Source of the DNA: Opitutales bacterium
Lineage (GTDB): Bacteria; Verrucomicrobiota; Verrucomicrobiia; Opitutales; Oceanipulchritudinaceae
Reading direction: 5' to 3'
Assembly: GCA_020831585.1 (NCBI GenBank)
Contig: JAFIGE010000038.1
Coordinates: 1 to 38,178 of the forward strand
Length of the DNA: 38,178 bases
The position numbers were made by a program, and so were the translations under genes. Every line of letters begins with the position of its first letter. Positions within the stretch are counted from its first letter, which is position 1. The notes beneath the pieces are model-generated. The model did not search any database and was not told the origin of the DNA. It saw only the letters and a program-made list of their open reading frames with translations. This document shows positions 2,312-27,466 of this stretch, in pieces.

Positions 2312-2764
2312 TTAGTCTTCCACACTGCCAAAAGCAAAGCGGCTGATCAAACTTTCCAATTCAATCGCGGATTCGGTGTCGAAGAGAATATCACCCGGAG
2401 CCAGGACGATTCCGGAACCGCCGGGAGAGAGACTGATGAAACGGTCTCCAATCAAGCCGCTCGTGCGAATGGAGGCGATGGTGTCGTCTTCAAGTTCGAG
2501 CCCCACGGGAACGCGGAAACGGACCATGGCGGCGAAGGTCTCGTGATCGAGGCGCACCTCAGTGACCTGCCCGATAGACACCCCGCCGATGCGCACATCG
2601 GCACCACGGTTGAGTCCGCCGACATTGGTAAAGCGGGCCTGGAGTTCGTAATGGTCACCGCCGAAAAAGCGCGCCCCCCCGATCTTGATCGAGAGGTAGG
2701 CGATGGCCACGAGGCCGACGAGGACAAAGAGGCCGACGAGGGTTTCAATTTTCAGTTTGCGCAT
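2312..2764 (-). CDS. mlaD: MlaD, MCE-domain substrate-binding subunit
   Basis: MlaD is an inner-membrane-anchored MCE protein that forms a hexameric ring on the MlaFE transporter and receives lipid from MlaC. The 150-residue protein has one N-terminal transmembrane helix (about residues 8-27) and one MCE domain with the hallmark segment LNRGADVRIGGVSIGQV. It then shows TSGLIGDRFISLSPGG and an acidic C-terminus. The length and single MCE domain match the proteobacterial MlaD class rather than multi-MCE proteins. The ATG at 2762-2764 lies inside the end of mlaF, overlapping it by 20 bases, which suggests coupled translation. Confidence 0.93.
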   Translation of the reverse strand: MRKLKIETLVGLFVLVGLVAIAYLSIKIGGARFFGGDHYELQARFTNVGGLNRGADVRIGGVSIGQVTEVRLDHETFAAMVRFRVPVGLELEDDTIASIRTSGLIGDRFISLSPGGSGIVLAPGDILFDTESAIELESLISRFAFGSVED

Positions 2765-3902
2765 GGGATACCTCGGAAAAGGAAAGGTGGAATGCAAAGG
2801 TCTCGGTCGCGCGCACAGTCGAACCATTGACGGCTTCAAGCGCTTCGAGGGAAAGGCGATAGGCGGGCCGGGCGGAGTCTGCGGCGGAAGCAGGCACCCC
2901 CTTGTCGAGCCGTGCGGCCAGCTCGCGGGCGGGCGGGGGCGGGTTTTCCGCATCCGTGAAGTGCACGTAGACAGACCAGACTCCGGCCTGGTAAAGGCGC
3001 ACACCCGGACCGGCGGACCGGCGCAACCGGCGGATGAAGGCGGCCGCCCGCAGATCCGGTAGGGCACTGGCTTCGTCCGGAGCCCGCTCACCGAGGGACT
3101 CAAAGGAAATGCGGAAGTGGCAATGCCCGATGCGGTCCGGCGAAACCGGGTGAATCCCGGCCACTTCGCTGCGCAAACCCTCGATGGAGGGCAGAAAGGT
3201 GGTGCGGAGGTCCTCGGCTGCACCCGTGAGGGCCATGGGCGGCCCGTCAAAAGCGATCTTCCCCGCCTCAAGGATGGCAATGCGGTCGGAAATAAAGAGG
3301 GCATCGGGCAGATCGTGGCTCACGAGCACCGCGGTGAAGCCAAATTGTCGCTGGTAGCGCTCAATCATGTGCAGCACCGAAACTTTGCGCAGCGGGTCGA
3401 GCCCCGTTGTGGGCTCGTCGAAAAGGATGATTTCCGGATCGAGGGCAAGGGCGCGGGCCAAAGCCACCCGCTTGAGCATACCGCCCGAGAGCTGGGAGGG
3501 GAACTTATCCTCCGCTTCGTCCAGATCGAGGCGCTGAAAGAGGCGCTTCACCCGCAGGCGGATTTCCCGCTCGCGCAGCCGGGTGCGCTCCCGCAGGGGC
3601 AGGGCCACGTTATCAAAAGCGGAAATGCCGTCGAGGAGGGCGTTGTTTTGAAACATGTAGCTCAGGCCCGGCGGAATCCGCCGCCGCCCTGCAAGGGTCA
3701 CACCATTGACGGTGATGCGTCCGCTATCGGCGCGCACAAGGCCGGAGATGCATTTCATGAGAACGGATTTACCCGCCCCGCTCTTCCCGAGGAGTGAAGT
3801 CACCTCTCCCCGCCGGATGGAAAAGTCGATGCCCCGGAGGACGGCCTCTTCCCCAAAGCTCTTGTGCAAACCCTCCACCTCAATAACCGTATCCGTGCTC
3901 AT
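2745..3902 (-). CDS. mlaF: MlaF ATPase with long C-terminal extension
   Basis: MlaF is the cytoplasmic ATPase that powers lipid movement by the MlaFEDB complex. Residues 1-240 form a complete ABC ATPase: Walker A GKSGAGKS (39-46), Q-loop around Q85, signature LSGGM (138-142), Walker B ILFDEP (159-164) and switch His 196. Typical MlaF proteins end near residue 260-270. This one continues to 385 with an alternating beta/alpha segment of about 145 residues that I do not recognise. The start ATG (3900-3902) directly abuts the mlaE stop, and the 3' end overlaps mlaD. No separate mlaB gene is present; whether the extension replaces MlaB's regulatory role is speculation. Confidence 0.93.
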   Translation of the reverse strand: MSTDTVIEVEGLHKSFGEEAVLRGIDFSIRRGEVTSLLGKSGAGKSVLMKCISGLVRADSGRITVNGVTLAGRRRIPPGLSYMFQNNALLDGISAFDNVALPLRERTRLREREIRLRVKRLFQRLDLDEAEDKFPSQLSGGMLKRVALARALALDPEIILFDEPTTGLDPLRKVSVLHMIERYQRQFGFTAVLVSHDLPDALFISDRIAILEAGKIAFDGPPMALTGAAEDLRTTFLPSIEGLRSEVAGIHPVSPDRIGHCHFRISFESLGERAPDEASALPDLRAAAFIRRLRRSAGPGVRLYQAGVWSVYVHFTDAENPPPPARELAARLDKGVPASAADSARPAYRLSLEALEAVNGSTVRATETFAFHLSFSEVSHAQTEN

Positions 3903-11316: not shown

Positions 11317-12114
11317 ATGACAATTTCCTTGGATGATTTGGCGGACAATCTGGAAAAGGTACGGGCGGAGTCGCCCCTGGTTCACAACATCACGAACTAC
11401 GTGGTGATGAACTTCAGCGCGAATGTGCTTCTGGCCGCAGGGGCCTCCCCGGTGATGGCCCATGCGGTCGAGGAAGTTGCCGAGATGGTGGAAATCGCCG
11501 GGGCGCTGGTGCTCAATATCGGCACATTGGAGCGCTCTTGGAATGAGTCCATGCGGGTGGCGGCGAAGGCGGCGCGCCTGCGGGAGCGACCGATCGTGCT
11601 GGACCCCGTCGGAGCGGGTGCCACGCCCTTCCGCACGCACACCGCTTTAAATTTACTGGAAGAATCGCCCCCCGCAATCCTCCGCGGAAATGCCTCCGAG
11701 ATCCTCGCCCTCGGCAACAAAGTTGGGCAGACACGGGGTGTCGACAGCCTCGTCGAGTCTTCCGCAGCCGAAGAGACGGCGCGTGAACTGGCCCGCACTT
11801 TTCACACGGTAGTTGTGGTGAGCGGTCCGGTGGACTACATCGTCTCCGCCGACCGAACACTCCGTTTGCGCAACGGGCATAGCCTGATGGCCCGGGTCAC
11901 GGGCACCGGTTGCGCTTGCAGTGCGCTGTGCGGAGCCTTCGCGGCCGTGGAGCCGGATCCCTTCTTGGCGGCTGCGGCAGCGATGGCGACCGCTTCCCTT
12001 GCGGGTGAACTGGCGGCGGAAAAAGCGTCCGGTCCGGGTTCGTTTGCGGTCGCTTTTTTAGATGAGTTGGCCAGCTTGAAGCGAACAGGCTTTGCGCGGC
12101 TGCGAATGGATTGA
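11317..12114 (+). CDS. thiM: Hydroxyethylthiazole kinase ThiM
   Basis: ThiM phosphorylates 4-methyl-5-(2-hydroxyethyl)thiazole, salvaging the thiazole half of thiamine. The 265-residue protein follows the family closely: SPLVHNITNYVVMNFSAN near the N-terminus, GASPVM, the DPVGAGAT motif, RGNASEI, and the anion-hole segment RVTGTGCACSA with the catalytic Cys. ATG at 11317 was chosen; an in-frame ATG six codons upstream (11299) is possible. The leader is only 76 bases after the RAYT stop, and I see no TPP-riboswitch core in it. No other thiamine gene lies in the window, so it appears to act in salvage as a single gene. Confidence 0.93.
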   Translation: MTISLDDLADNLEKVRAESPLVHNITNYVVMNFSANVLLAAGASPVMAHAVEEVAEMVEIAGALVLNIGTLERSWNESMRVAAKAARLRERPIVLDPVGAGATPFRTHTALNLLEESPPAILRGNASEILALGNKVGQTRGVDSLVESSAAEETARELARTFHTVVVVSGPVDYIVSADRTLRLRNGHSLMARVTGTGCACSALCGAFAAVEPDPFLAAAAAMATASLAGELAAEKASGPGSFAVAFLDELASLKRTGFARLRMD

Positions 12115-12145
12115 GCGCCGCCCACCCTCTTTTTCTTCCGAGTCC

Positions 12146-13075
12146 ATGAACCCCGTTACACCAACCCCTGAACAGGGTGCCGTCCTTGTTCGTGCGATGC
12201 GCTTGTCCCTTGCGGTCGGGGTGGCCATGGTGGCGATCAAGTTCGGGGCTTTCGGGTTGACCGGTTCCACAGCGATCCTCTCCGATGCCGCCGAGACGGT
12301 GGTGCATGTCTTCGCAGTGGGCTTTGCCCTCTTTAGCCTGCACCTTTCACTCAAGCCACCGGATCGCGATCATCCTTACGGGCACGCAAAAATCCATTAC
12401 TTCTCCGCCGGGTTTGAAGGGGGAATGATCATTCTCGCGGCACTTTTTATCTTCTATGAATCGATCAGCCGCTGGATGCGGGGGATTGATCTGGAAAACC
12501 TCGGCTTCGGGGTGCTCCTGACAGCGGCCACGGTGGTGGTGAACGGCGTTCTCGGCCTCTACCTCAAGCACCTGGGCAAGCGGGAAGGATCGCTCATCCT
12601 CCGCGCCAATGGCACCCACGTCCTCACGGATTGCTGGACGAGTCTTGGTGTGGTCGTGGGCCTGAGTCTCGCGGCTTTCACCGGGCAAACTTTTTGGGAT
12701 CCGCTCCTGGCCATCTTTGTCGCGGTGAATATCCTCATTTCCGGTTACGGACTACTCAAGACCAGCTTTCGCGGCCTCATGGATCAGGCTGATCCGTCGG
12801 TGGAGGCGCGCCTTGTCTCCATTCTCGACCGCGAAACAACGAAGCGGGATCTCGGCTGGCACAAACTGCGGCACCGGAGTTTAGGCGACGGGTACGGCAT
12901 CGAGGTGCACCTGCAGTTTGATGCCGATAAAAACATCGACGATGCCCATGCCATAGCAAGCCGCATTGAGCAGGCCATTCGCGCGCAACTTGGACCGCGC
13001 GCGATCGTGACCACCCACCTCGAGCCGAAAAAGCCGGAGAAAGACGCTCACGCTCCGAAACTTCCGCCGGATTGA
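12146..13075 (+). CDS. Cation diffusion facilitator (CDF) exporter
   Basis: The 309-residue protein is a CDF transporter that exports a divalent metal such as Zn, Fe, Mn or Co in exchange for protons. Six hydrophobic helices are visible from about residue 18 to 205. Transport-site residues include D47 (with E50) in TM2 (SDAAETVVHV) and H158/D162 in TM5 (THVLTDCWTSLG). The cytoplasmic C-terminal domain (about 210-300) has HKLRHRSLGDGYGIEVHLQF, the usual metal-sensing fold. The TM2 site departs from the common two-Asp pattern, so metal choice is open. The ATG at 12146 lies 31 bases after thiM. Confidence 0.92.
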   Translation: MNPVTPTPEQGAVLVRAMRLSLAVGVAMVAIKFGAFGLTGSTAILSDAAETVVHVFAVGFALFSLHLSLKPPDRDHPYGHAKIHYFSAGFEGGMIILAALFIFYESISRWMRGIDLENLGFGVLLTAATVVVNGVLGLYLKHLGKREGSLILRANGTHVLTDCWTSLGVVVGLSLAAFTGQTFWDPLLAIFVAVNILISGYGLLKTSFRGLMDQADPSVEARLVSILDRETTKRDLGWHKLRHRSLGDGYGIEVHLQFDADKNIDDAHAIASRIEQAIRAQLGPRAIVTTHLEPKKPEKDAHAPKLPPD

Positions 13076-19713: not shown

Positions 19714-20718
19714 TCAGGCACGTTTGCTGGCCGAATACAGCCCCTCGTCGCCAAAGCCAGCAGCCGGCACAGGACCGCTCGTGCGCGCTCCCCCCGTTGA
19801 ACCTCCGCGGCGTTCACACATCCACTTCTGCACAAACGCCTTGCTTCCAATAATCGCACCACAGGTCATGTAACGCACGCGGCAGCGGAGCTGTTGAACC
19901 CCACTCAAACGTCCCCCCTGCGCTTTCACATTCATCGCATCATCCGCCGAAACGGTCCCGCCTTTACGCGGATCTGAACCGATCAAAAAAAGGTATTGCC
20001 GGTAGCGTGCGGCCACGACCTCCGGCGGATCCGCTCGATTATCAGCAATCCGCCTCCAGACCGCATAGCTCGTCAAACGCCCCCCTCCCACCGATTCGCC
20101 ATATCCGCTGAAACGATAGTCCTTCGGATCTCTCACAATGCCCGCACGAACCGCGTTTAAATCGATGTAGGCAGCCACCGCGCGCACCGCCAACCGCGTG
20201 TCCTCCACCAGAACGCTCCGGAACCGCCCCTCCCAAAGGGTGCCCACGCGGTCATACTTGCGATTAAAAAGAATCGAATAGCGCTGTTTCAAAATCTTCA
20301 TAAACATGGGCAGCGCTGCCATTCTCCCCATCAGCAGCCCCCGCATCGCTCCTCTCCCTTCACCTCCCGACCTGAGGGCACCCTCGATCCGCGCCATGGA
20401 GAGCGGCTGCCCCTTTCTCTCTTTTCCGTAGAGCAGCCTCGCCCGTCCCAGAAGCTCCTCATCGCTCAACTCACCCACGCTTCCCGGCACTTCAACAAGC
20501 AGGTGAAAATGATTATCCAGCAGAGCATAGGTGATCACCTCCACTCCACAGAAGCCCGCCACCCGCCGCAACAGCCCCCGGAAAGCCTCCTTCTCCTCAT
20601 CTGTGAGCAGAAACGATTGCCCACACACCCGACTCACCACGTGGTGAACCGTCGTGACACCCCCGCGCACCCCCGCACGCGGCATTCGCCGACTCTTCAC
20701 TGGCACCCAAGCTTTCAT
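19714..20718 (-). CDS. Second REP-associated tyrosine transposase (RAYT)
   Basis: A 334-residue RAYT, clearly different from the one at 10245. It shows RGGVTTVHHVVSRVCG near the N-terminus, the HUH motif as DNHFHLLVEV, DRVGTLWEGRFRSVLVE and AAYIDLNAVRAGIVRDPKDYRFSGYGE. The C-terminal RVRYMTCGAIIGSKAFVQ block is typical of the group found in Opitutae. ATG at 20718 was chosen; another lies five codons upstream (20733), and the open frame extends further but without similarity. It is divergent from the DUF429 gene with about 97 bases between starts. No palindromic REP cluster was seen on either side. Confidence 0.9.
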   Translation of the reverse strand: MKAWVPVKSRRMPRAGVRGGVTTVHHVVSRVCGQSFLLTDEEKEAFRGLLRRVAGFCGVEVITYALLDNHFHLLVEVPGSVGELSDEELLGRARLLYGKERKGQPLSMARIEGALRSGGEGRGAMRGLLMGRMAALPMFMKILKQRYSILFNRKYDRVGTLWEGRFRSVLVEDTRLAVRAVAAYIDLNAVRAGIVRDPKDYRFSGYGESVGGGRLTSYAVWRRIADNRADPPEVVAARYRQYLFLIGSDPRKGGTVSADDAMNVKAQGGRLSGVQQLRCRVRYMTCGAIIGSKAFVQKWMCERRGGSTGGARTSGPVPAAGFGDEGLYSASKRA

Positions 20719-20815
20719 GGCCCCCCATCCCATCAAACATACCGCCAATTGCAAGAATATTTTTAACGGTAAAATCTTAGTTGAAATCTTGGAGTTCGCT
20801 GCTTTCTTTGAGTGT

Positions 20816-21538
20816 ATGGCAATGTTGCTGGCGATGGATGGATGCCGGGGGGGATGGTGTGGCGTGTCCTGTTGGAAAGAGCGGCCGGATGAGGTGGTGT
20901 TTGGGCTCTTTGGAACCGTGGAGGCGGCTTGGTCTCGGGCGGGAGCGGGAGCGGGGGCGGAGATCGCCGTGGATATGCCCATCGGGTTGCCCTGGGCAGA
21001 GGTCCCCGGTCGCCCGTGTGACGGGGAAGCGCGGAGACTGCTGGGCAAAGGGTTGGGCTCCCGGGTATTTCCGACACCTGCGCGGGCTTCTTTGTTGGCT
21101 TCGTCTCATGCAGAGGCCGTCCGTTTGAATCGCCTGGCAACCGGTAAGGGAATATCGGCGCAAGCCTTTCACCTGCTACCGAAGATACGCGAAATTGATT
21201 CGTTCATCGGTCGTTTTCCGGATGCGGTGGTTCGTGAAGTGCATCCTGAACTTTCATTTATGCGGCTGAACGGCGGGCGCGCCGTGCGGGCGCGGAAAAA
21301 ATCGCGGGAAGGTTTCAGCGAGCGCTGGACAATTCTAGAGGCAAATGTTCCGGAATGGATGAATGCCTTGGGTCGTGTGATCGACCAAACGCGAAGATCC
21401 CAAGCCAAGCCGGACGATTGGCTGGATGCAGCGGCGATCGCAGCGGCTTGGTTGAGAGGTGACGGGCAATGGGATTTTGCCTGCGCCCCGCCGCTCCAAA
21501 ACGATGAGGCGGGCAGGCCGATGCAAATCGCCTTTTAG
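20816..21538 (+). CDS. DUF429 family protein (predicted RNase H-like fold)
   Basis: The 240-residue protein matches the DUF429 pattern: an N-terminal MDGCRGGWCG motif, AVDMPIGLP, CDGEARRLLG, SRVFPTPAR, then SAQAFHLLPKIREID and VREVHPELSFMRLNGG, and a C-terminal DDWLDAAAIAAAW. The conserved Asp and Glu residues fit an RNase H-like nuclease fold, predicted but not proven for the family. The ATG at 20816 directly precedes the first core strand; a second ATG at 20822 is equally plausible. Its stop overlaps the stop of the convergent pseudokinase gene (21535-21538). Confidence 0.88.
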   Translation: MAMLLAMDGCRGGWCGVSCWKERPDEVVFGLFGTVEAAWSRAGAGAGAEIAVDMPIGLPWAEVPGRPCDGEARRLLGKGLGSRVFPTPARASLLASSHAEAVRLNRLATGKGISAQAFHLLPKIREIDSFIGRFPDAVVREVHPELSFMRLNGGRAVRARKKSREGFSERWTILEANVPEWMNALGRVIDQTRRSQAKPDDWLDAAAIAAAWLRGDGQWDFACAPPLQNDEAGRPMQIAF

Positions 21539-24500
21539 CGGCTCAACTCAGGGGCGAGGACAACCCGGAAACCCGTCCCCGGATGGCGCAACTCGGGATT
21601 TGCCCGTTCGCGCGCGGCCGTGCGGGCGCGATGAGCAAAGTCTTCCCAAGATCCGCCACGCACAACGTAGCCGCGTCCGCCGTCCCACCTTACAAAATCG
21701 ACCTGATCTCGCCCCGGAAGGCGATCGTGAAAGGCATCCAGCGTCCACTCGCGAACATTACCCGCCGTGTCGTAAAGGCCCCAGGCATTGGGCGCGAAGC
21801 GGGAGACTGGTACGGTGCCAAACTCCTCCCTTTGCTGAAACTCCCGCATCCCACCGCGGAAATCCCGCGGATACTGGCCTGAAAAATTTCCATCGGTCGG
21901 CCCAGCGGTGTCGCCCCAGGGGAAAGCGGTCAGGCTTCCGGCCCGGGCCGCATATTCCCACTCCGCCTCGGTCGGTAACCGGTATACATAACCACGCGGC
22001 AAACGCCCCCGTTGGCGCTCAAAGGCCGTGAGTCGCTCGGCAAAGAGCATAGCTTCGCTGCGCGTTACACTTTCGACCGGACGGTCCGCTCCGGGGAAGC
22101 GGCTGGGGTTCGTTCCCATGATTGCCCGAAAAGCAGCTTGCGTGGTCTCTGTCTGCGCCATCCAAAAGCCTCTTGTCAGGCGAACGGACGTTTGGATGTC
22201 TTCGGTCGGCAATCGCTCAGGCTCAGCCCGAGGGCTCCCCATCGTAAAGACCCCTGCCGGTATCCAGGAAAGCCCCATATTGAGATGGGGGACGGTGAAA
22301 GCCTGCCCGGCAACCGGACCGGGCAGCGGGCGCAGTTCCGGGCGCCACACCACGGTCTCGTTTGGACGGGGACGAAAGGTTCGCTGCACGGCGAGGTGGT
22401 CCGGCACGATGAAGGTGACAACGGTCTGCTCGCTGGCGGGCAGTTCAAGATATCCGTTTCCAGGTTCAGCCGGCTCGCCGTCCAAAAGGAGGCGAAAGCT
22501 CTCTCCGGATGTCTCCAAACGCAGACGGGCCGGTCGCCCGACAAGGGAAAAGGTGGCCGTCGACTCGGCCCCTTCATCAATGACCAGGATCTGCTCGGCG
22601 GAAAAGTAGTCGGGATGATCCACCTGAACCGTATGCCGCCCGACCGGCCTAACCGTTTCCAAACGCGAGGAAGGTTCCTGCTCCTCGCCATTTATGCGAA
22701 TCCGGAGTTCGTCCACCGGGGAAGGGGGATGCCCTTCAAAGAGGACCTCTACCCGTAGGATACCTTCTCTCACACCGAGAGTTCCAAAGTCGATTCGCTC
22801 TCTTCCCCCGGCTTCCAAAACGATTTCCCGCGCCTGGCGTTCGTGGATATCCCCCCCGACTTCAACACGAATGGGCACACCGGAGGGCAGGTAGTCTGCG
22901 ACAAAAGGGGTCACGCCGACAGGCTCTCCGTCTATCCGCACCGGAATCCCGTCCTCATCGGTGGCAATAGTTAGAATGGCGGGAACCCGAACCAGCTCGG
23001 CTTCCAGTTCGAGGACCTCTCCCTCAATCAGGCGCACCGCCTCAAAACGACGCGAAATGTATCCGGGCGCGCGGACCTCCAGCCGGTGGATCACTGCGAG
23101 AAGCCGATCAGGCACATCCAACGAACCACCCGGCGAAATCGTGCCGACATAAACCGGACTCCCCTCCTCTCTCTGGGGTAAAGCGAAGAGGTACGCTCCC
23201 GGAGGACCACGCAACCGCAAGTGCCCGAAACTCTCCGTCAAAAGAACGGCTTTTTCCAAAGCCGTGCGACCGGGGGAGATTTCAATGTGGGTCTGACGAA
23301 AACCCGGCGCACTCACCCGCAATCGGTGATCACCGGCCGGCAAACGCAAGAGCGCAAGTCCATCGGAAACAAAAACAGGAGGGCTTTCGGACAGGGTCTC
23401 CACGTCCACCCGCGCGCGCTGCGGTTCAATGCGGAGGATGGTGTTTGCCCGCTCCACGGTGCCCGCCCGCACGTCGACGATGGCAACCGGCTCCGCATCG
23501 ATCAGAACAATCCGCATGAAATAGCCGCCCAAGCCGACGCTCACAATGCCCAAAAGACCGAGCATGACGAGACGGAGGATTCGCTGCTGGGGGTTCGTCA
23601 AACGTCGCTCGACCATTGCCGGGAGCGGCACACGATCAACGTTGCGGGCGACACGCCCGGGTTCCTGAACTTTCTGGCCGAGATTTTCGGGGGTGAGTTC
23701 ATCCACCCGTCGAATGTCCGATTGTAAGGCGGCGAAATGCGTATAACGGTCTTTCGGACGGGACTCCGCACAGCGCTCAATGACCAGGCTCCAACCCTTC
23801 GCCACCTTTAACCGCGCCGGCAGAACCGGCATCAATTCGCGCCCGGGCTTCTCCCCCGCCAAGAGCCAGTAGGCCACAATCCCGAAACCGTAGATGTCGC
23901 TGCGCTCATCACCCTGTTCGTTATTGCGCACTTCGGGACTGATCGTATCCAGCGATGTCAAAAAGCGGACATCCTTTTCACCCGCGAGCGGATTGATGGC
24001 TGTGCTGACAAAGAGTTCCCAACGTCGCCGGTGAATGGCCCCGAACACCCCGAAACCATAAACTTTCACCGCTCCGTCACTTCCGAGAATCACGTGCTCC
24101 GAAGACAGGGCAAGGTGAGGCATATCCACCGCATTCGCGGCAGCACAGGCCTTGGAAATCTCGCCGAGTATATGCGTGACCTTGGCCTCCGGAAGCCCCT
24201 CCCAGTGAGCGGGATCTTCCATGTATCGAGCCAGGGTCTCCCCATCCACAAACGGATAGCGCAGACAAACGCTGTCCCCCAGTTCTTCGACCAGATCCGG
24301 GGTGAGGAGGCTGGGAATACTCAATTCCGAGAGAGTGCTCACCACTTCCTGAAGGCTCTCGGTCGGGCGCGGGGATTTGGCGAGCGCATCCGGGAGGACC
24401 TGCAAGAGATGCTTGGATCCCGAGCGGCCGTCACGCACCACATACAAGGCCCCGAACAACCCCAAAGCCACGTTGCCCAAGATGGCGTAGTCGCCGACGA

Positions 24501-24549
24501 TCTCGCCCGGCTCAATGAGCGATTCCGTTATGATGCTGGTGTAGGACAT
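21535..24549 (-). CDS. Pseudokinase - PEGA - FGE-fold membrane protein
   Basis: A 1004-residue fusion. Residues 19-282 have a Ser/Thr-kinase fold (SPEVRNN, SDIYGFGIVAYWLLAGEKP), but the catalytic residues are gone: the VAIK Lys position reads Gln (about Q50), the HRD loop reads HLA (145-147), and DFG reads GFG (165-167). A transmembrane helix follows (about 324-347), so the kinase-like part is cytoplasmic. Residues 350-740 are PEGA-like beta repeats. Residues 758-1000 are a complete formylglycine-generating-enzyme/sulfatase-modifying fold (WIPAGVFTMGSP, YRLPTEAEWEYAARAG, GLYDTAGNVREW, VVRGGSW, GTGFRVVL). This domain contains no Cys, so it should not be a formylglycine synthase. Probable role: membrane sensor or scaffold linking an outside ligand to a cytoplasmic pseudokinase. 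The start has no strong ribosome site. Confidence 0.88.
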   Translation of the reverse strand: MSYTSIITESLIEPGEIVGDYAILGNVALGLFGALYVVRDGRSGSKHLLQVLPDALAKSPRPTESLQEVVSTLSELSIPSLLTPDLVEELGDSVCLRYPFVDGETLARYMEDPAHWEGLPEAKVTHILGEISKACAAANAVDMPHLALSSEHVILGSDGAVKVYGFGVFGAIHRRRWELFVSTAINPLAGEKDVRFLTSLDTISPEVRNNEQGDERSDIYGFGIVAYWLLAGEKPGRELMPVLPARLKVAKGWSLVIERCAESRPKDRYTHFAALQSDIRRVDELTPENLGQKVQEPGRVARNVDRVPLPAMVERRLTNPQQRILRLVMLGLLGIVSVGLGGYFMRIVLIDAEPVAIVDVRAGTVERANTILRIEPQRARVDVETLSESPPVFVSDGLALLRLPAGDHRLRVSAPGFRQTHIEISPGRTALEKAVLLTESFGHLRLRGPPGAYLFALPQREEGSPVYVGTISPGGSLDVPDRLLAVIHRLEVRAPGYISRRFEAVRLIEGEVLELEAELVRVPAILTIATDEDGIPVRIDGEPVGVTPFVADYLPSGVPIRVEVGGDIHERQAREIVLEAGGRERIDFGTLGVREGILRVEVLFEGHPPSPVDELRIRINGEEQEPSSRLETVRPVGRHTVQVDHPDYFSAEQILVIDEGAESTATFSLVGRPARLRLETSGESFRLLLDGEPAEPGNGYLELPASEQTVVTFIVPDHLAVQRTFRPRPNETVVWRPELRPLPGPVAGQAFTVPHLNMGLSWIPAGVFTMGSPRAEPERLPTEDIQTSVRLTRGFWMAQTETTQAAFRAIMGTNPSRFPGADRPVESVTRSEAMLFAERLTAFERQRGRLPRGYVYRLPTEAEWEYAARAGSLTAFPWGDTAGPTDGNFSGQYPRDFRGGMREFQQREEFGTVPVSRFAPNAWGLYDTAGNVREWTLDAFHDRLPGRDQVDFVRWDGGRGYVVRGGSWEDFAHRARTAARERANPELRHPGTGFRVVLAPELSR

Positions 24550-24727: not shown

Positions 24728-27466
24728 TCAGCGAACACCGGCTTCCTCCAGAGCGGCCTTCCAACTACCGAAAGCGTTGAGAGCGGCATCGTAGAGGGCG
24801 CGGTCGCGCAAAGCAGGGGGGCCCAGGCAAATCACGCCGTATTTCATGGCCTTTCCTGCCGAGGCGCGTTCGCGCAGGGCGGTGATAATCCGGAGCTTTT
24901 CCGGATCCTCCGGTTCGGTCTCGAAATCGTCGCCAAACTCTGAGGTGTCCGCACCGGCGGCGGCAAGAATACGCGCAAACTCCGCTGCCGTGGCTTCCCG
25001 CGCGGGAAACTCATTTGGCTTGGAGCTTCCCTTGGGAGGCGCGGTTTGTGCGGAGGCAGACATATCCGGCTCCTCACCACTGTCGGAAACGGCGGCGGCC
25101 CGGGACTTTTCGGCACGGGGGGCGTGCGGCTGAAGAAACTTAGGCAAACGCCGGGGCCGCCGCTTGAAACGGGCAAGGATTTCCTTGGGTTCAAACCCGG
25201 CGGCCCGAAGCGCATCGTGCCATGAGCCAAACGTTTTCGTACCGGCGTTGTAAATTCGCGAACCCTCGGTGGTGAGGGTCAGCTGAGGGCTGGCGACACT
25301 CTTTCCATCAGCCACACGGGCCTGGAGAAAGGCAATGATCTCTTCCTTTGATGGCGGCATGCGGCCATTGCCCGACACCCCCAGCTCGGAAAGAAGGCTC
25401 TTCCAATCTCCAAACTGGGCGCGCACCGATTTGACAAAATGCGCACCGTCTTCCTCTTTCGCAATATCCCTTGCGAGAGCCGGCTTATTTTCTTCGAGCC
25501 GTTTGCGCATCGTTTGGAGGATAAACTCCTTGGAGAAAAGCGGTCGGGGTGGCGGTTTCACCTTCGGCACCTTGGGTGGCTTGGGCTTGGCCTTGGGTGC
25601 GGGATTGAAGCGGGCGATAATTTCCACCGGATCAAATCCGGCCGCTTTGAGAGCGTTTTCCCAGCTGCCGAAAACCTTTATTGCGGTGCGGTAGTAGCGG
25701 TAACCGGGGCTCTCCTTACTCAACTTGGCTGAGGACAGGCCAATGCCATCGTCCACCCGCTTTTTCATGAAAGCGATGATGTCCTCCCGGCTCGGCTTTG
25801 GTTGTGCACGCGCGCCGACCTTGTTGTTCGGCACATCCACACCGGCGGCATTCAGTGCGGCCCGCCAGTGCCCGAAAATCCGTCGCGCGGCATTCGTTAC
25901 ACGCGAGTGCCCGGCTCGGGCGATGCGGTCGCAATTCAAATGCTCCCCCTTCTCCACACGGTCGCGAATAAAAGCCAGCACCTCTTCGCGGCTGGGGCCC
26001 GTCGGTGGGCGCGGTGGGCGCGGCTCCTTGGGCTTGGTCGGCAGATATCGCGGCGGCGGCGCACGGAGGCGGCCGTCCGGACGCAACCCTGCCGCCTTCA
26101 AGGCCTCCACGTGCGGCCCGAAATGCAAGCGGCTGTCAAGGAGCAGGTTGCGGTCTGTCTCCGTACCCTGTTGCAATTGGAACGCCCGCACGGGCTCACC
26201 GGCTGCCATGCGTCTCTTCAATTCCTCAACCACGGCCTCCGGGGTGGCAAAAACCGGCACCCGATCTCGCTTCTTGGCAGCTCTGCTTGGCATTGCAACT
26301 CCAGCTGCCTCCAAAGCTTCCTTCCATGACCCGAAGTATCGCAGGGCGGAGGTTTGTAAGCCGGAATCGCGGTCAGGTCCATCGAGAAGCGCGCGACCGT
26401 TCACCGGCAAACCCTCTTCATCCCGTCTGCGGATTTCCTCGATAATCGATTCCTTGTCCTGATAGCGCCGCTTGATTCCGCGCGCGCGCTCCGCCTTCAA
26501 ACCCATCGCTTTGAACAGGTTTCCCATTTTACCGAAATGCTTCGTGATCGCAATGAGCAGATCCGGATTGCGCTCCTTCACATCTCTTTTGCGGGGAATT
26601 CGATCACCTTTGATCATCTCCCGCATGATTTCGATGACCTTCTCCGGTGGATACTTCGCCGCGATCTTTTGGTGATCGCGCGCGCCTTTCGGGAGCCGGT
26701 GTCCAGTGGAGATCTTCAGACCAACCGCCTTGGCGGCTGCCGGATAGTTGGCAAAGTGGCGCAACACGTCCCGGCGAATCGAGAAATAGCGGGACTTCAG
26801 AGTCCTTTCCGTCGGAAGATATCCATCGATGTCGATGTCCCGCAAAGCCTGCAATGTCTCCTCGTAGGAGCGCAACGGGTCCGGGGGAGGTTTGGGCGTT
26901 TCCGCCTCCTTTGCATATTCCGGGCCCATGAACGCGCAAAACTCGGGCCAGGATTTCCCACTGCGCTTTGCGTGAACATAGAGCGGCCGGTCATTCCGGT
27001 GAATAAAATCCGTCGTGATGGGAAATTTCTGGCGCCTGTATTCCGCGACCCGGTCGTAAACATATTCATCCGTCATGATCTTCTCCCACGGCAGAATCGG
27101 GGGCACCCGGACAAGCTTTCGCCGGCCAAAGAAGTTGTACAGCCGTTGCTCGCTCTCCACCTCTTCGCCGGGAAACTTCTCCAGGTATTCTCCTGGCTTC
27201 AGACCGTGTTTGAAGCGCAAGTGGGAGGAAAGCGAAGTGCCCTCAAACCCACAAATCCGGCAGCGGACCGTCGCGTGGTAAGCGAAGCGAATATCTTCGT
27301 AAGAAATACCCGCCTCTTCGAGCGCGCGCTTCCAACCCCAGTAAGGGCGAATCCGGATGGCGGCACCGATGAGTTCCGGGTGATACCGTTTCACAGCTTG
27401 AATATTCAGCGGTTCTCCGGCCGCGTGTAGTTCCTTGATTCGGGCAATGATCTCTCTCTTCTCCAT
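24728..27466 (-). CDS. Multi-repeat HNH-associated-repeat protein with Ros-type zinc finger
   Basis: A 912-residue, Lys/Arg/Pro-rich protein built from about ten copies of a ~52-residue unit ending in FGSWxxALxAAG. Copies lie near residues 3-54, 200-250, 274-323, 338-390, 408-461, 492-543, 559-611, 645-697, 706-758 and 857-911; 131-185 may be a worn copy. This is the homing-endonuclease/HNH-associated repeat, usually a DNA-binding accessory. Between the first copies lies one zinc finger, C69-X2-C72-X9-H82-X4-H87 then G88, the spacing of Ros/MucR prokaryotic fingers. No HNH or other nuclease motif was found, and there is no signal peptide or membrane helix. Linkers are Pro/Lys-rich. Inference: a modular DNA-binding protein. 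Its target and role are unknown. Confidence 0.85.
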   Translation of the reverse strand: MEKREIIARIKELHAAGEPLNIQAVKRYHPELIGAAIRIRPYWGWKRALEEAGISYEDIRFAYHATVRCRICGFEGTSLSSHLRFKHGLKPGEYLEKFPGEEVESEQRLYNFFGRRKLVRVPPILPWEKIMTDEYVYDRVAEYRRQKFPITTDFIHRNDRPLYVHAKRSGKSWPEFCAFMGPEYAKEAETPKPPPDPLRSYEETLQALRDIDIDGYLPTERTLKSRYFSIRRDVLRHFANYPAAAKAVGLKISTGHRLPKGARDHQKIAAKYPPEKVIEIMREMIKGDRIPRKRDVKERNPDLLIAITKHFGKMGNLFKAMGLKAERARGIKRRYQDKESIIEEIRRRDEEGLPVNGRALLDGPDRDSGLQTSALRYFGSWKEALEAAGVAMPSRAAKKRDRVPVFATPEAVVEELKRRMAAGEPVRAFQLQQGTETDRNLLLDSRLHFGPHVEALKAAGLRPDGRLRAPPPRYLPTKPKEPRPPRPPTGPSREEVLAFIRDRVEKGEHLNCDRIARAGHSRVTNAARRIFGHWRAALNAAGVDVPNNKVGARAQPKPSREDIIAFMKKRVDDGIGLSSAKLSKESPGYRYYRTAIKVFGSWENALKAAGFDPVEIIARFNPAPKAKPKPPKVPKVKPPPRPLFSKEFILQTMRKRLEENKPALARDIAKEEDGAHFVKSVRAQFGDWKSLLSELGVSGNGRMPPSKEEIIAFLQARVADGKSVASPQLTLTTEGSRIYNAGTKTFGSWHDALRAAGFEPKEILARFKRRPRRLPKFLQPHAPRAEKSRAAAVSDSGEEPDMSASAQTAPPKGSSKPNEFPAREATAAEFARILAAAGADTSEFGDDFETEPEDPEKLRIITALRERASAGKAMKYGVICLGPPALRDRALYDAALNAFGSWKAALEEAGVR

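Follow-up and report, generated by a model that had tools for sequence, protein, structure and literature searches.

A Ros-type zinc finger joined to an HNH_repeat array, with no nuclease domain detected, in a rare protein family of several bacterial phyla

Background

Proteins of the Ros/MucR group occlude or repress the sites to which they are bound. The zinc ligands of Ros are C79, C82, H92 and H97, and fingers of this type serve an H-NS-like binding of AT-rich DNA (PMC9779718). Phage homing endonucleases contain loosely tethered DNA-binding modules and have sites of up to 30 bp; I-TevI acts in addition as an autorepressor, at its own promoter (PMC3943268). For the HNH_repeat unit (PF18780), which Pfam describes as a homing endonuclease associated repeat, the sole paper that we found naming it modelled its structure only (PMC8078820), and our literature search returned neither a paper establishing its function nor a DNA-binding measurement for any such unit.

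Here we describe a 912-aa protein in which these elements are combined. It is encoded in a stretch of 38,178 nucleotides from an Opitutales bacterium (Verrucomicrobiota), the whole of which we refer to as the window. A preliminary description of the window, made from its letters alone, had drawn attention to this protein.

Results

The gene and its surroundings

The 912-aa open reading frame is genuine (Table 1) and occurs as a single copy in the 5.28-Mb, 98.5% complete source genome. Its GC3 is 0.67, compared with 0.67-0.73 in its neighbours, so that its codon composition matches theirs. The protein has a net charge of +49 and a pI of 9.9, and the relatives described below are all basic (pI 8.9-10.5).

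The adjoining gene (window 21535-24549, minus strand) encodes a 1004-aa fusion of a kinase-like domain with PEGA and an FGE-sulfatase domain. At window 19714-21048, also on the minus strand, lies a Y1-type (RAYT-like) transposase frame that retains its HFH motif; a homologue of it stands directly upstream of an M32 peptidase gene in genome G009 (L107:2354-3187). The preliminary description had taken this neighbour as a sign that the protein may travel with mobile DNA. We rejected the link, because the RAYT-like frame is ~3.7 kb away, with the 1004-aa gene in between, and was seen beside none of the relatives examined; mobility is instead suggested by one relative in a phage module and by the phyletic scatter of the family. 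The M32-cyclophilin pair that adjoins the 912-aa gene is kept across the taxonomic family, and the region upstream of the pair in the other genomes of this family is variable and holds no gene of the 912-aa type. A conserved operon was rejected, since the neighbouring genes differ among the relatives, and for the same reason nothing points to a regulated one. No target site was found: recent duplicates apart, no convincing motif, autoregulatory or other, is common to the upstream regions of the relatives. A 37-nt element near the family genes of two Lentisphaerae (L050:9918-9954 and L048:2109-2145, 89% identical) looks like a REP-type palindromic hairpin.

Eleven HNH_repeat units

The whole protein matches PF18780 in six stretches with 111.9 bits (E = 1.7e-32), which exceeds the Pfam gathering score of 26. 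To delimit the units we used a model trained on the relatives, from which the 912-aa protein was left out, with 200 shuffles as the control. Eleven units were found. Their individual scores range from 6.3 to 58.5 bits, and the total is 359.6 bits. The shuffles reached a maximum of 4.1 bits per domain and 5.8 bits per sequence, so that every unit, including the weakest two (units 3 and 4, with 6.3 and 7.5 bits), scores above them. The assignment to PF18780 is thus borne out. The preliminary description, which counted about ten units ending in FGSWxxALxAAG, was correct as to the array; the count is eleven, however, and the exact motif is present only in units 5, 8 and 10, the remaining units having diverged.

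Each unit is predicted by AlphaFold2 to have four helices (about 13, 6, 10-14 and 7 residues), and the linkers between the units are rich in Pro/Lys and of low confidence. The full-chain model has a mean pLDDT of 75.5 and a pTM of 0.39, and the mutual arrangement of the units is therefore undefined in it. These tethered units, together with the high net charge, agree with the modular array on Pro/Lys linkers that had been proposed. Searches of the PDB by sequence and by fold gave no clear match to the four-helix unit, which does not in itself establish a new fold; by fold it resembled helical scaffolds weakly, in matches that the search tool flagged as uninformative. Matches to TraX, PaREP1, GRAS and 14-3-3 were weak and single, and were rejected.

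Table 1. Features of the 912-aa protein gene (positions in the window) and of related loci (positions in the named record)
Feature	Position	Strand	Residues and basis
Protein-coding gene (head and array)	24728..27466	-	912 aa; PF18780 match; leave-out unit model
HNH_repeat unit 1, in conserved head (PLNIxAVKR..P...PxWGW)	27296..27460	-	residues 3-57 (3-56 in the leave-out model)
Ros/MucR-type zinc finger, ligands C69, C72, H82, H87	27173..27277	-	residues 64-98
HNH_repeat-like unit 2, behind invariant WE...EY..DR; ends conserved head	26915..27073	-	residues 132-184 (132-176 in the leave-out model)
Unit 3, weak	26717..26863	-	residues 202-250; leave-out model, AlphaFold2
Unit 4, weak	26498..26647	-	residues about 274-323; leave-out model, AlphaFold2
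Unit 5	26297..26458	-	residues 337-390
Unit 6	26078..26245	-	residues 408-463
Unit 7	25835..25993	-	residues 492-544
Unit 8	25628..25792	-	residues 559-613
Unit 9	25376..25534	-	residues 645-697
Unit 10	25184..25351	-	residues 706-761 (706-760 in the leave-out model)
Long linker, low-confidence, pLDDT mostly <50	24905..25159	-	residues 770-854; AlphaFold2
Unit 11, C-terminal	24734..24898	-	residues 857-911
Phage homing endonucleases with Ros-type fingers (SP-15, MIJ3)	L115:2447-3784 and L116:2516-4132		
Genes flanking the L056 relative (phage portal gene, terminase fragment)	L056:11-1510 and L056:3212-3670		

A Ros-type finger in a conserved head

The first ~185 residues form a conserved head, in which a Ros-type finger stands between two units; behind it follows a tail whose number of units varies. 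The four ligands of the finger and twenty other residues of the head are invariant (15 proteins). The finger has the spacing C69-X2-C72-X9-H82-X4-H87, identical to that of Ros and exactly as the preliminary description had read it. The head is modelled with confidence (pLDDT 90.4, pTM 0.81), and in the model the finger is formed by strand residues 67-68, 75-76 and 78 and by helices 80-87 and 91-97. A head profile built from 15 relatives matches the structure of A. tumefaciens Ros (2jsp) at 2.1e-5. Foldseek ranks 2jsp first for the head model, with a probability of 0.87 but an E of 1.7 over 48 columns, and when VIA-align is run on the full model Ros again comes out on top (Z 4.3, rmsd 4.2, 54 residues). 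Pfam ROS_MUCR is detected in 13 of the 15 members (best member E 7.5e-6), but the 912-aa protein itself, at 18.3 bits, remains below the gathering score of 25.4. The earlier reading of a Ros-type finger is supported by profile and fold. The 912-aa protein shares with Ros the spacing, the second helix and the HGxxxxEYxxxFP follow-on; it differs in being 912 aa of repeats rather than one finger domain, and apparently in lacking the N-terminal oligomerisation region of Ros/MucR, residues 3-57, where the Ros N-terminus would stand, being an HNH_repeat unit.

No nuclease domain detected

Searches with Pfam, NCBIfam, PHROGs and PADLOC detected no HNH, other nuclease or enzyme domain in the 912-aa chain, and no PADLOC anti-phage defence family was matched. 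The full AlphaFold2 model contains no extra folded or enzyme domain and the head model no enzyme fold. On these grounds, with residues 770-854 being a low-confidence linker, we rejected a hidden enzyme domain, in accordance with the earlier reading that no HNH motif is visible. That reading had, however, treated the absence as exceptional, which it is not. Finger-less, nuclease-free HNH_repeat proteins of 3-4 units are common in several families of the phylum (L020-L037, L061-L086), and the lack of a nuclease is for this reason not special to our protein. These stand-alone proteins have the same kind of array but are shorter and possess neither the finger nor the conserved head; genomes G616 and G650 contain three or more copies of them. 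Compared with the homing endonucleases that carry PF18780, the 912-aa protein has the same unit, in eleven copies and above the Pfam cut-off, but no HNH domain, a long array and an attached Ros finger.

Family and distribution

By single-sequence and head-profile searches we identified the head in 15 more proteins, which come from 12 other genomes; their arrays, like ours, belong to a range of 3 to 11 units. The relatives come from Verrucomicrobiota and neighbours, Planctomycetota, Acidobacteriota and Myxococcota. They were found in Opitutales (G039, contig SLTG01000048, a MAG of the same order as the source genome), Puniceicoccaceae, Verrucomicrobiales, Akkermansiaceae, Lentisphaerae, Kiritimatiellales, Pirellulaceae (among them the named strain Rhodopirellula maiorica SM1), Thermoanaerobaculia, Myxococcales and one more genome of the class. 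Occurrence is low: three of 372 genomes of the order, three of 365 of the class and none of the 16 other genomes of the source family, and a pattern-based scan of 84,980 species returned 11 genomes only. As the relatives are mostly MAG contigs, single taxon placements could be binning errors, and it is their recurrence that carries weight. In a tree of the heads, the 912-aa protein groups with three other Verrucomicrobiota sequences (99/96), the Puniceicoccaceae sequence lies outside and the deeper forks are weak. The head-and-array proteins are thus a rare, previously unnamed family that spans several phyla.

Some genomes have more than one member. There are two copies in one Myxococcales genome, and tandem second copies in two Lentisphaerae (L050:9998-11953 and 12014-12856; L048:407-1507 and 2362-3081). 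The array of the first L048 copy (L048a) seems to continue in another frame (L048:1354-2046), as if through a frameshift or an assembly error. In genome G769, an extra N-terminal stretch (L118:940-1500) appears ribbon-helix-helix-like by eye, and Pfam gives no match to it.

Selection and evolution of the array

Pairs of relatives have dN/dS values of 0.20 to 0.60, and the relatives evolve under purifying selection. Unit order is kept between close relatives, with diagonal identities of 0.38-0.81 compared with ~0.25 off the diagonal in the two clearest pairs. The last four units of L050 are 80-90% identical in DNA and hence recent duplicates, showing that this array grew through unit duplication. 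The helix 2-loop-helix 3 region accounts for most of the amino-acid differences among them (16 of 23 columns; p 0.006 by permutation, for a region picked after inspection in one protein). Among these units dN/dS is 0.77 in helix 2-loop-helix 3; it is lower in helix 1 (0.31) and lowest in the FGSW/helix-4 part (0.13). These values are compatible with a scaffold that stays constant and a contact face that varies, and they do not prove positive selection. A test of columns between orthologs and paralogs is suggestive of helix 2/3 positions, but with 14-15 pairs only, and with consensus labels that shift by one after about column 32, we give it no weight.

Links to phages and homing endonucleases

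Ros-type fingers stand N-terminally in phage homing endonucleases, namely SP15_103 of Bacillus phage SP-15, which has two, and MIJ3_37 of a Pseudomonas phage. These proteins are annotated as nucleases and, in contrast to ours, contain no HNH_repeat units detectable by the unit model. An 83-aa ORF that precedes the terminase gene of an Exiguobacterium phage has a finger of the same type. The Kiritimatiellales relative (L056:1667-3205) is flanked by a phage portal gene (3.3e-72) on one side and by a terminase fragment (1.1e-3) on the other, and is antisense to them; its GC3 of 0.44 is below that of its neighbours. A site between phage portal and terminase genes is typical of free-standing homing endonucleases. 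At the level of the head, viral contigs and phage records yielded no member. Together, the finger and phage links support a toolkit common to the family and to homing systems, and they support mobility of at least one relative, from which mobility of the window copy does not follow.

Discussion

Our best reading is that the family is a nuclease-free descendant, or a parallel assembly, of homing-endonuclease targeting modules. We hypothesize, at about an even chance of being right, that its members are nuclease-free DNA binders of long sites, built from modules of this type, and that they probably occlude or repress the sites they bind. DNA binding on its own is the likelier part of this proposal, to judge from what is known of the families, the relationship of the finger to Ros and the charge of the protein; we further infer that binding would be sequence-specific. 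The head and the string of four-helix units, on flexible basic and proline-containing linkers, would lie along duplex DNA, and each unit would add contacts, so that one molecule might cover an extended site. As the chain holds no recognised catalytic domain, binding would most likely end in occlusion or repression of the site, a step drawn by analogy with Ros/MucR and with the I-TevI binding domain at its own promoter. A more specific version, which we consider rather unlikely, holds that each HNH_repeat unit reads DNA as a module, with its base preference set by positions in helix 2-loop-helix 3, and that the family is a natural nuclease-free reader whose number of units (3 to 11) rises and falls as it tracks long DNA targets. 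The likeness to TAL effectors and other modular DNA readers is in concept only, namely that a constant frame is repeated in tandem while certain positions vary, and it implies no one-unit-one-base relation; TAL effectors are, to our knowledge, unrelated to these proteins.

The modules of homing-endonuclease type could also mean that the protein is the targeting part of a selfish, homing-like system, in which a nuclease supplied in trans, or by the host or a phage, cuts and the gene spreads by repair. The antisense position of the Kiritimatiellales relative, the scattered occurrence within the order, the source family and the species scan, and the tandem or double copies in Lentisphaerae and Myxococcales would all suit such a system. 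Nonetheless, no nuclease gene was recognised beside any member examined, phage and viral records hold no member at head level, the gene in the window has no second copy in its genome and is surrounded by chromosomal genes whose codon composition it shares, and the head has been conserved over a long divergence; we thus regard this reading as a minority possibility. Less again can be said for a nucleoid protein or xenogeneic silencer of the MucR or H-NS kind, with broad binding of low specificity. The AT-rich binding served by Ros/MucR fingers, the high positive charge and the many binding-type units would be in keeping with it, but the N-terminal oligomerisation region needed for Ros/MucR silencing appears to be replaced by an HNH_repeat unit, the family turns up rarely and sporadically in its clade instead of being general there, and the identities of individual units are kept between relatives, which makes it quite unlikely.

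Since the four-helix unit has no solved relative and resembles helical scaffolds in weak, albeit uninformative, fold matches, the units might instead bind RNA or protein and the whole serve as a scaffold. The association of PF18780 with endonucleases, the location of the Ros finger in the most conserved part and the strong basic charge render this distinctly improbable. Finally, the missing catalytic domain and the seemingly broken L048a array might suggest that the protein is what is left of a homing endonuclease after loss of the nuclease, decaying and without function; with a 912-codon frame that is intact, purifying selection in the relatives and ligands invariant across several phyla, this explanation is already disfavoured and we consider it highly improbable.

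A nuclease-free binder of long sites would be a case of homing-endonuclease targeting parts serving without a nuclease. The Pfam family HNH_repeat is widespread, yet next to nothing has been published on it. Proteins with 3 to 11 units behind one head, together with the fresh duplicates in one member, offer a direct way to ask whether and how the unit reads DNA. Ros-type fingers are now placed in proteins of Verrucomicrobiota and neighbours, Planctomycetota, Acidobacteriota and Myxococcota.
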